In this document: positions 12,985 to 37,811 of the stretch, piece after piece | How the letters are laid out: every line of letters starts with the position of its first letter | How positions within the stretch are numbered: position 1 is the stretch's first letter | Source of the DNA: Deltaproteobacteria bacterium | GTDB taxonomy: Bacteria > Desulfobacterota > Desulfomonilia > UBA1062 | Direction of reading: 5' to 3' | Length of the DNA stretch: 64,000 nt | Assembly (NCBI GenBank): GCA_015486075.1 | Contig: WFSG01000041.1 | Location: 95,396 to 159,395 of the forward strand | Made by a program: the position numbers and the translations under genes | Notes under the pieces: generated by a model | What the model was told of the DNA's origin: nothing | The model's input: only the letters and a program-made list of their open reading frames with translations | Databases searched by the model: none

Positions 12985-14253
12985 ATGCGTTGGGTTTATG
13001 AACACCTGTTAAGCCTTCTTCCAGTATTTCTTGCGTTGTTCTTCTTTACTGTAGATGCTCATAGTTACGAGTTCAACCTAGCGCCTGGCTTGTATTACAG
13101 GTCTGATAATAACGGCACAGAAATCAAGGTACTAGGTCCATTGCTGGAGCTCACATCCGATCACCTGGCGATAAGGCCTCTTCTTTACAAGGATAATGAA
13201 CACATGGACTTTCTTTATCCCCTTGGTAAGTACGGTAACAAGGGTACGAGGTTCTCTCCACTCTTCTCCTATTACAAGTCTGGTAAAATTTATTCTTTTA
13301 ACCTGTTCCCATTTTTTTGTGGTAACAACGGCAAGAGGTCGTACCATGGTCTTTTCCCCGTGTACGGTAGCCTTTATGATCGTTTTGGTTTCAGGGAAGC
13401 AAGGTTTGTTCTATGGCCACTTTACTCGAGGACAGTAAGAGATAAAGACGTAGTCACGTATTCAATACTTTGGCCCGTATTTACGTACTCAAGGGACCGT
13501 GAATTCAAGATATTCCCCATATATGGTATGGAGAAAAGCCCGAAGAGGTCCTACATGTATATGCTTTGGCCATTGTTTCATGTCAGGAAGACACCTGGTA
13601 GCAGCATGCACGCATTTCTTCCTCTGTTCATGCTTGATAGGGGGGCTTACCACATGAACCTGTCTTTGCTCTGGCCTTTCTTTACCTACAACAGCGACTA
13701 TCGATTTGACCACAGGAGTATTGAGTGTCCATGGCCCATATTGAGGTTTGCATCGGGAGGATACAGGGAGATAAGGATTTTCCCCTTTTACTGGGTAAAG
13801 CAGCAGGGCTTTAAGAAGAGAGTAAGTGTATTATGGCCATTGTATCAATACAAGACCAATGGAGTAGACATAACCCAGAGGAGATACTTGCTCCTGTCGA
13901 GTGATACTGTAGAGATAAAAAAACAAGGTAATGCTGTTCGTACCATCCATGCATGGCCCATACTTTACAGGAGAAGCAAGGGCAGGTCCGTTGACTGGCA
14001 TTTCCCCGATATCATTCCCTTTACGGGCAAGTGCTACAGAGAGAACATCGAGCCAATCCTTACGCTTGTTAGTTCATCTAGCAGGAAAGATTCTTACACA
14101 CTGGACATACTATGGCATACATTGTACTTCAGGAGAAAAGGCACCTTTAGGAGATTTTCCGTATCATTACTGTTTTCATATGAGTGGGATAGATCCTACA
14201 GTAGACTGGGATTCTTGTGTGATCTTCTGAGGGTAAATCTCAATCACCCATAA
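12985..14253 (+). CDS. Uncharacterised secreted, probable outer-membrane beta-rich protein with repeated LWP[LF][FY]/FP[LIF][FY] motifs
   Basis: Signal peptide, then recurring LFPFF, LFPVY, LWPLY, LWPVF, IFPIY, LWPLF, FLPLF, LWPFF, IFPFY, LWPLY. Confidence 0.7.
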   Translation: MRWVYEHLLSLLPVFLALFFFTVDAHSYEFNLAPGLYYRSDNNGTEIKVLGPLLELTSDHLAIRPLLYKDNEHMDFLYPLGKYGNKGTRFSPLFSYYKSGKIYSFNLFPFFCGNNGKRSYHGLFPVYGSLYDRFGFREARFVLWPLYSRTVRDKDVVTYSILWPVFTYSRDREFKIFPIYGMEKSPKRSYMYMLWPLFHVRKTPGSSMHAFLPLFMLDRGAYHMNLSLLWPFFTYNSDYRFDHRSIECPWPILRFASGGYREIRIFPFYWVKQQGFKKRVSVLWPLYQYKTNGVDITQRRYLLLSSDTVEIKKQGNAVRTIHAWPILYRRSKGRSVDWHFPDIIPFTGKCYRENIEPILTLVSSSSRKDSYTLDILWHTLYFRRKGTFRRFSVSLLFSYEWDRSYSRLGFLCDLLRVNLNHP

Positions 14254-14344: not shown

Positions 14345-14373
14345 TTGACAACATACGATTTTGGCTGTATAAT
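14345..14373 (+). promoter_or_regulatory. Perfect-consensus sigma70 promoter
   Basis: TTGACA (14345-14350), 17-nt spacer, TATAAT (14368-14373). Confidence 0.8.
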
Positions 14374-14377
14374 AAGA

Positions 14378-14445
14378 GCCTTGGGTCCGCACCAAAAGTA
14401 AGGGCCTATGGGGTTTGGCTCACTTAGGTAAAGGGACCCAAGGCC
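14378..14445 (+). ncRNA. Candidate structured small RNA
   Basis: Starts at the predicted TSS of the above promoter; GCCTTGGGTCC (14378-14388) pairs perfectly with GGACCCAAGGC (14434-14444); inner helix 14396-14406/14417-14425; no ORF; lies between convergent genes. The 3' end is not defined by an obvious terminator. Confidence 0.55.
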
Positions 14446-14601
14446 TACTAATATGTTAACGTTAGCCTATTATAAGTCAAGTTGCGAAATGAAATTTTTA
14501 ACTAACTTTTCATCTTTGTTTGTGATTTTCTTTCATGTCAATATGAGGCGAAAAAACTAAAGTATAGTGTGAATCCTTAACCGTATTAAAGACTTTATGT
14601 T

Positions 14602-14988
14602 CTATATAATTTTACTTATGTCAGTGGGGCCATGCATGTAAAACAGGTGGCTTATACACTTACAATCAGAGCATCCAAAGCCAGGGACAGGCCTTGTAGC
14701 ATTTATTCTGTGTAGCTTCCTGGCAGTTTCGCACTCCCCTCCAGTAGTAAGGTAGATGGAACTCACTTCACAGTCTGTCTCCTTAAGTAAATAATCTATG
14801 TGCCAGTGAATCCTTTTGTCCCTTCTTAGGTGCCTTTGTATTCTTTTGAACATATTCAGCTTAGCAGAGCCAACGTAAAGGTATACGCCTTTCTTGAAAT
14901 CTATAGTCCCAAGTGCACCTATGGAGATAGTGCTGTTGCATGATTTCGTGATCTCGAGCACATAGGTTGAGCTTTTCAGTATATGCAT
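14602..14988 (-). CDS. GIY-YIG nuclease-like protein (DUF123 type)
   Basis: GVYLYVGSAKLNMFKRIQRHLR and HWHIDYLL. Confidence 0.8.
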   Translation of the reverse strand: MHILKSSTYVLEITKSCNSTISIGALGTIDFKKGVYLYVGSAKLNMFKRIQRHLRRDKRIHWHIDYLLKETDCEVSSIYLTTGGECETARKLHRINATRPVPGFGCSDCKCISHLFYMHGPTDISKII

Positions 14989-36288: not shown

Positions 36289-36317
36289 TTGACAAATACA
36301 ACATAAATAAATATAAT
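36289..36317 (+). promoter_or_regulatory. Perfect-consensus sigma70 promoter upstream of the LarA-like gene
   Basis: TTGACA (36289-36294), 17-nt spacer, TATAAT (36312-36317), 58 nt before ATG 36375. Confidence 0.8.
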
Positions 36318-36374
36318 TCACTATAGTATAAAATTATTCTAGCATGTAATCATTTGAATTGTACTGGAGGTCAG

Positions 36375-37811
36375 ATGTCGATAAAAAGGACTATCTTTTG
36401 CGGAAACAACTTCGTAGATGTTGAGTTTCCTGATGACACTAGGATTCTGACAGCCCCGATACATGATGATATTCTTGATAATCCTCGGGAAAAGGTTCTC
36501 GAAGCAATAAAAAATCCCATTGGGATGAAGCCTCTGAAGGAACTCGCTAGAAGTGGGTCAAGGGTGATGATTGCCTTTGATGATCTTGCTGTGCCTGTTC
36601 CACCAATGGTACCTAACCCGGATAACAGGATGATCGCTATTGAGGCAATTATAGAGGAGTTATACTCGGCTGGTGTCAAGAAAAAGGACATAATCCTTGT
36701 ATGTGCCAATGGCCTGCACAGGAAGTGGAAAAGAAGCGAGATTTCAAGCATACTTGGACCTAGGATAATGAAAGAGTTTAGTATTGGCCAGATTATATGC
36801 CACGATGCCGAGGATAAAGAACATTTAATTCACCTAGGCCTTACAGAGAATGGCTGTGATGTGGAGGTAAACAGCAGGCTTGTTGGATCGGACCTGTCCA
36901 TATATGTAAACCTGAACTGGGTACCTTTTAACGGGGGCTGGAAATCAACTATGATAGGCCTTGGTACATATAATTCTATACGGCATATACATAATAATGA
37001 GATATATCTGGATGAGGCACCTGCATCCTGTATGGAACCCGAGAGAAACCTGATGCATGCACGTATCAGGGAGATGGGTCGGCACCTTGCAAAGTACATG
37101 GATACACTGGGCAAAAAGGTTTTCCAGGTAGAGACCATGATAAACAGCAAACTTCCTCCTGAGATGTCAATGGTCTATGCAGGTGATGTGGATATGGTTC
37201 ACGAGAAGACACTTGCCTATCTTGATAAATACAAGGTTCTGGACGTCAGGGGACAATCAGATGTCTTGGTCTTTGGCCTTCCAGACTTTATGCCTTACTC
37301 CATGGGGACCTATATAAATCCTATATTGGTAGCTAGAATGGGGCTAGGTTACTTGTTTGCAAATTACAAGAACATGCCTCTTGTAAGGGAAGGCGGTATT
37401 TTAATCCTTGCAAATCCGTTGATAGATCAGGTGGATCCCATACACCACCCTTCCTATGTGACCCTGTGGAATGAGGGGTTTGAACGAACTAATGATGCCT
37501 GGGAACTCTACGATATATTTGCCGAGGATTATGCCCATCGTCCGGACTTCATACATAAGTATCGTTACGCTTATGGTTTTCATGGCGTACATCCGGTTCA
37601 AGCATACGCAACTACCATATATCCCAAGAGATATTTATCGAAGGTATTTGCAGCTGGTTGCACAGACAATAGGGTAGCAGAAAAACTCGAATGGGATCCG
37701 TTTGCCACAGTTGAGGACGCATTATCACAGGCGAAGAAAGAGCTGGGCAGTGATATTCATATAACGTATGTCAGTCTTCCACCTTTATTTATACCGAGGG
37801 TTGAAGCATAG
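36375..37811 (+). CDS. LarA-like (DUF2088) nickel-pincer-dependent racemase/epimerase family protein
   Basis: MIAFDDLAVPVPPM, VCANGLHRKW, ICHDAEDKEHLIHLG. Confidence 0.75.
   Translation: MSIKRTIFCGNNFVDVEFPDDTRILTAPIHDDILDNPREKVLEAIKNPIGMKPLKELARSGSRVMIAFDDLAVPVPPMVPNPDNRMIAIEAIIEELYSAGVKKKDIILVCANGLHRKWKRSEISSILGPRIMKEFSIGQIICHDAEDKEHLIHLGLTENGCDVEVNSRLVGSDLSIYVNLNWVPFNGGWKSTMIGLGTYNSIRHIHNNEIYLDEAPASCMEPERNLMHARIREMGRHLAKYMDTLGKKVFQVETMINSKLPPEMSMVYAGDVDMVHEKTLAYLDKYKVLDVRGQSDVLVFGLPDFMPYSMGTYINPILVARMGLGYLFANYKNMPLVREGGILILANPLIDQVDPIHHPSYVTLWNEGFERTNDAWELYDIFAEDYAHRPDFIHKYRYAYGFHGVHPVQAYATTIYPKRYLSKVFAAGCTDNRVAEKLEWDPFATVEDALSQAKKELGSDIHITYVSLPPLFIPRVEA

Follow-up and report, generated by a model that had tools for sequence, protein, structure and literature searches.

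A previously uncatalogued small RNA predicted to block translation of an RpoH-like sigma factor across a bacterial family

The window analysed here, a stretch of 64,000 nucleotides of deltaproteobacterial DNA, holds a candidate gene for a small RNA (sRNA) whose loop is complementary to the start of a sigma-factor gene at a separate locus. We assign a probability of roughly 0.8 to the reading that it is a trans-acting, base-pairing sRNA with its own promoter and terminator that blocks translation of this alternative sigma factor. Comparison of related genomes established the RNA family, its strand and structure, the conserved complementarity, and a family-level distribution that the RNA shares with the sigma factor. 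From the anatomy of the two partners we infer how they would act in the cell. The sRNA would be made from its own sigma-70-type promoter, and its loop, CCCCAUAGRCCC, would meet the AUGGGG of the sigma mRNA. Pairing would then extend through the Shine-Dalgarno sequence and exclude the ribosome, with repression as the result, and the sigma factor would stay off until synthesis of the sRNA stops or the sRNA is titrated away. Hfq, which is encoded in the genome, may assist the sRNA. Judged by its sequence and that of its partner, the sRNA is most likely an off-switch for a stress-type regulator.

If this is true, a global regulator is controlled by a dedicated RNA switch that is co-inherited family-wide, with the pairing site frozen in both partners. 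Little sRNA biology is known in bacteria of this kind. An uncharacterised sigma factor also gains a testable regulator, together with an exact prediction: 13-17 bp of pairing over the ribosome-binding site and start codon.

Strand and structure of the RNA gene

The initial annotation, made from the letters of the window, proposed a small structured RNA transcribed from the plus strand by a sigma-70 promoter of exact consensus, TTGACA-17-TATAAT. Much of the anatomy that it described is present, including that promoter, the two arms of an 11-bp stem (GCCTTGGGTCC at 14378-14388 and GGACCCAAGGC at 14434-14444), an inner helix within this stem, and flanking genes that converge on the element (the 422-aa ORF of Table 1 and a 128-aa ORF on the minus strand that ends at 14602). 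It was also right that no ORF covers the sRNA locus, at least none of 80 aa or more in the window, and that no U-tract follows the stem on the plus strand. The element has a fold energy of -34.7 kcal/mol, compared with -24.8 +/- 3.3 for shuffled sequences (z = -3.0). Two features of the minus strand were overlooked: it has a conserved promoter of its own, TTGACT-16-TAACAT, and a U-rich tail.

Table 1. Features of the sRNA locus and its proposed target. Positions are those of the window unless a contig is named.
Feature	Position	Strand	Remarks
sRNA gene, ~79 nt	14368..14446	-	Start near 14446, end in U-rich tail near 14368; ends inferred from promoter and tail
Conserved sRNA promoter, TTGACT-16-TAACAT	14453..14480	-	Promoter type found in 18/19 members
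Outer 11-bp stem, 5' arm (helix 1)	14434..14444	-	93% of cells paired; five pairs altered on both sides
Outer 11-bp stem, 3' arm	14378..14388	-	25 G-U and 0 A-C pairs in outer stem
Loop core CCCCAUAGGCCC (CCCCAUAGACCC in most relatives), proposed pairing seed	14402..14413	-	Near-invariant in all members
U-rich tail CUCUUAUUAU, probable terminator	14368..14377	-	Directly after the stem; read from sequence
Exact sigma-70-type promoter	14345..14373	+	Exact sequence match; reads into the sRNA gene from the 3' end
422-aa ORF, function not assigned, follows an MlaD-like ORF	12985..14253	+	Convergent to the sRNA in the window; also flanks the sRNA in G002, G003 and G006
252-aa RpoH-like sigma factor	G000:C33:130169-130912		Target gene, separate locus; orthologues L095-L115

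We take the minus strand to be the RNA strand because the promoter is kept there, the G-U wobbles fit it and the U-rich tail lies on it. Lined up from the members, the promoter has the consensus cTTGAC[A/T], 16 nt, TA[T/A]CAT, with a further ~8-9 nt separating it from the stem. In 18 of the 19 genomes with the sRNA, a promoter of the TTGAC[A/T]-16/17-TA type scores 9-11 of 12 and lies 6-10 nt before the stem; in G003 no promoter was recognisable on the sRNA strand. The outer stems of 18 members contain 25 G-U and no A-C pairs when read as the minus strand, and the reverse would be expected of a plus-strand RNA. The tail follows the minus-strand stem in most members, where relatives have CUUUUAUUUU, CUUUUUUUCU, CUUUUUGU and similar sequences at this position.

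Thus, what stands of the original proposal is a small structured RNA gene that is present and conserved with compensatory changes, whereas its strand and promoter were wrongly assigned for the conserved RNA: the promoter kept in 18 of 19 genomes is the weaker-looking one on the minus strand. Without comparative data, even a perfect promoter can suggest the wrong strand. As far as sequence comparison goes, this is a previously uncatalogued small RNA gene on the minus strand, predicted to run from about 14446 to 14368. In the window, the TATAAT of the plus-strand promoter is the complement of the sRNA's U-rich tail. Exact TTGACA/TATAAT pairs with a spacer of 16-18 are expected 0.03 times per window and were observed twice, at 14345 and 36289. 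The second (TTGACA-17-TATAAT, 36289-36317, plus strand) precedes a 485-aa ORF that starts near 36354-36375.

The predicted fold has a closed outer stem and, inside it, a hairpin that displays the C-rich loop CCCCAUAGRCCC. Relatives show the compensatory changes that a structured RNA was expected to have: 10 of 21 pairs have both of their bases altered in one species or more, compared with 4.8 in shuffles, and none of 500 shuffles reaches 10, in an alignment that was fitted to the structure, so that these counts lean towards it. When the partner is shifted by one column, the share of paired cells falls from 90% to 57% or less.

Members of the family and known RNA classes

The genomes analysed, that of the window being G000, comprised a family sample of 24, a sister-family sample of 18 and a phylum sample of 396. 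At the DNA level, a search through 60 related genomes yielded a single clear relative. It is in G002, from a different genus within the family, and occupies the same place next to the 422-aa ORF. A two-sequence covariance model of the plus strand returned true members plus chance matches, among the latter L028-L032, which proved on inspection by eye to be unrelated sequence. A seven-sequence model of the minus strand (alignment A3) scored 77 bits in the window's own genome (E 1.3e-18) and detected a single copy in 19 of the 24 family genomes. Seventeen of these are strong (E 1e-8 to 1e-23); the two weaker copies, in G003 and G006, were accepted on the agreement of stem, loop and neighbouring gene. 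With the same model, neither the 18 sister-family genomes nor the other families among the 396 phylum genomes gave a convincing copy, and the weak matches there (one short match, L063, in the sister family and three, L125-L127, in other families) are short or without the loop.

A repeat in G038 and G028, CCCCATAGGCGCTAAC, shares CCCCATAGG with the sRNA and was rejected as a dispersed repeat and not the same RNA. Its core (L004 in G038, L010 in G028) occurs in about a dozen places in G038 and resembles a mobile-element or REP-type repeat.

The sRNA has two or more genomic addresses. It lies beside the MlaD-associated 422-aa ORF in four genera (L039, L041, L055, L051) and near another gene set elsewhere (L042-L049, L033-L040). 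Judging from these neighbourhoods, the single-copy sRNA appears to have moved, or its surroundings to have been rearranged, within the family. In G003 (L055) and G005 (L048) it is directly downstream of a trpA-like ORF, and a small TrpR/YerC-like ORF is found near the locus in many of the other genera; both may be chance neighbourhoods.

The element has no match in Rfam 15, in keeping with the initial annotation, which saw no fit to 4.5S RNA, tmRNA, tRNA or the c-di-GMP-I riboswitch pattern. In the window only a tRNA reached its gathering score, and the best matches at the locus were at chance level, 11-15 bits against gathering scores of 37-52. For 6S RNA (RF00013) there is no match at the locus, and its bulged duplex of ~180 nt contrasts with the ~79 nt found here. 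The whole G000 genome also gave no RF00013 match, though it is listed as 100% complete, and its family may carry a diverged 6S RNA. The bacterial small SRP RNA (RF00169) of this genome is located elsewhere (G000:C9:19385-19483, 60.5 bits). A riboswitch or other cis-regulatory leader was rejected because transcription of the sRNA runs towards a convergent gene, both in the window and in most of the relatives inspected. The element has instead the properties of a trans-encoded sRNA: it forms a unit of its own (promoter in 18 of 19 genomes, U-rich tail in most, no ORF of at least 80 aa), its secondary structure is conserved, and so is a seed complementary to the mRNA of a separate locus.

Complementarity to the start of a sigma-factor gene

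We searched the family for the complement of the loop core with wobbles allowed, GGGTYTRTGGGG. Besides the sRNA locus itself, this revealed a repeated context, AAGGAGGGTCTATGGGGAGC, where a 252-aa sigma factor has its ribosome-binding site and start. It is the one other conserved place to which the loop CCCCAUAGRCCC is complementary, at the Shine-Dalgarno sequence and start codon GGAGGGUCUAUGGGGAG. Orthologues of the sigma factor (E <= 1e-40) are encoded by 22 of the 24 family genomes and by none of the 18 sister-family genomes, and matches beyond the family, among the 396 phylum genomes, are 1e-36 or weaker. The close sigma orthologue and the sRNA have the same family-level distribution. In one genome that is 94% complete (G012) the sigma gene is present and the sRNA was not detected; the genomes in which one of the two partners was not found are mostly incomplete.

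The best-scoring protein family for the sigma factor is NCBIfam rpoH_proteo, with 185.8 bits for the G000 protein and 175.5 for that of G007, below the cut-off of 323 bits. Sigma-70 regions 1.2, 2 and 4 are present, as read on the G007 protein. On the basis of these scores the protein is RpoH-like only, and not a confirmed RpoH. The start regions of two paralogous sigma genes, in G007 and G015, lack the pairing motif. About 30-90 bases before the sigma start, the orthologues L095-L115 carry a conserved TTGAC-n-TGTGAAA..TAT..TAAC block, which is probably the sigma promoter together with a TGTGA half-site resembling an operator. Of the 24 family genomes, 21 encode Hfq, G000 among them; in about 14 genomes it lies ~6-7 kb from the sigma gene, which is not the case in G000.

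Both partners are present in 17 genomes. In 14 of these, the longest helix that they can form at the sigma start without a break has 13-17 bp and runs from the Shine-Dalgarno sequence through the start codon into codons 2-3. The pairing in G000 is 13 bp, composed of 6 + 7 with one bulged A (sRNA CCCCAU-A-GGCCCUU and target AGGGGCC-AUGGGG), and there is one bulged base in G023 and one mismatch in G002. On a 240-kb contig of G017, no site other than the sRNA's own complement scores better than the sigma start (-54.3 kcal/mol; mean -17.8, sd 4.6). Among 1803 candidate starts in ~300 kb of G000, it ranks first for the 20-nt loop core and tenth for the longer loop.

The target side is constrained at the level of codons. 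Codon 2 of the sigma gene is GGG in 19 of 21 cases, compared with 28% of the other Gly codons in the same genes, and codon 3 is AGY in all 20 cases of Ser, compared with 33% elsewhere. The TCT spacer is likewise retained, and beyond the pairing site the conservation declines. Some changes occur in both partners. The A-to-G substitution in the sRNA loop of G000 and G002 (CCCCAUAGGCCC, AGGCCC) accompanies a change of the target from GGGUCU to GGGGCC, and in G006 a loop with five C faces a target with at least five G. These events are few. When sRNAs were swapped between species, the mean duplex energy was -38.8, compared with -40.8 for cognate pairs, which is no strong cognate preference; the energies barely differ because all of the sRNAs share the loop core, so that co-evolution at the species level is weakly shown. 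Full pairing would require that part of the sRNA inner stem opens. The net energies from RNAcofold, a tool that cannot represent such loop (pseudoknotted) pairing, are about zero in many genomes and uninformative for this interaction.

Alternative readings and comparison with known systems

One proposal would add to the repression reading: both strands may be transcribed in the window's lineage, with the minus-strand RNA as the regulator and the plus-strand RNA, a copy of the sigma start, as a sponge or a source of collision. Convergent promoters occur in G000, G005 and G006, and the plus strand reads AAGGGCCTATGGGG, which resembles the sigma start region. We consider the addition unlikely, given that it would apply to a minority of genera, that the plus transcript is without a terminator, and that the plus promoter could be a leftover or have a different role. 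A complete two-strand RNA switch in this lineage, in which the minus-strand sRNA shuts the sigma start and the antisense copy mimics that start and releases repression, is a shade more doubtful again. The plus-strand promoter itself may be real in G000 and give an RNA antisense to the sRNA; it may serve as a sponge or for collision, or it may be a relic.

The sRNA could also pair with the sigma start and activate it, for instance if it opened a hairpin in which the Shine-Dalgarno sequence is hidden. In many sigma leaders a short hairpin is indeed predicted upstream, with the Shine-Dalgarno sequence paired in it (mean z -1.4), which may be a weak hint of a second control layer. We regard activation as very improbable, however, since the pairing covers the Shine-Dalgarno sequence and start codon themselves and would block the ribosome. 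It is about equally improbable that the shared sequence is a protein-binding motif, or was left behind when the sigma start was duplicated in inverted form, and involves no regulation by base pairing: in some species (G017, G023) the similarity to the sigma start extends past the loop, but synonymous positions are frozen within the pairing site only, and the maintained promoter, the maintained fold and the one copy per genome argue for a function in trans. Just as poorly placed is the original view of the conserved RNA as a plus-strand transcript from TTGACA-17-TATAAT with the minus-strand promoter incidental, as a promoter on that side scores at least 10 of 12 in only four of the 19 genomes (12 in the window; 12, 11 and 10 in G003, G005 and G006, which represent three other genera) and is absent from the other 15, whereas the minus-strand promoter is found in 18, the outer-stem wobbles (25 to 0) fit the minus strand only, and the U-rich tail sits there as well.

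The predicted repressor has partial parallels among described RNAs. RsaE/RoxS of Gram-positive bacteria are sRNAs with C-rich loops that mask Shine-Dalgarno sequences, and the window sRNA likewise presents an unpaired C-rich motif to a G-rich Shine-Dalgarno sequence. Unlike them, it matched no Rfam family and has one near-perfect, conserved target site that spans the start codon, rather than many targets. For Salmonella Typhi, a cis-antisense RNA on the opposite strand of the rpoH gene has been described (PMC5963218). Taken in outline, it resembles the window sRNA in its complementarity to an rpoH-type gene and differs in its origin, as the sRNA comes from a separate locus and would pair by a short seed.

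In the open-access literature on described sRNAs of similar kind in related bacteria, we found nothing closer than UdsC of Rhodobacter sphaeroides. UdsC binds the 5' region of the rpoHII mRNA and lowers its expression, as determined by EMSA and mVenus fusions; its source is a 3' UTR, and the binding site predicted for it begins two nt from the mRNA 5' end (PMC9779115). The likeness in mechanism lies in a small RNA directed against the 5' region of an mRNA for an RpoH-type sigma factor, an interaction that is predicted in the present case. In contrast to UdsC, the window sRNA has its own promoter and probable terminator and is predicted to cover the start codon when it pairs; across the family, sRNA and target are conserved as a pair.
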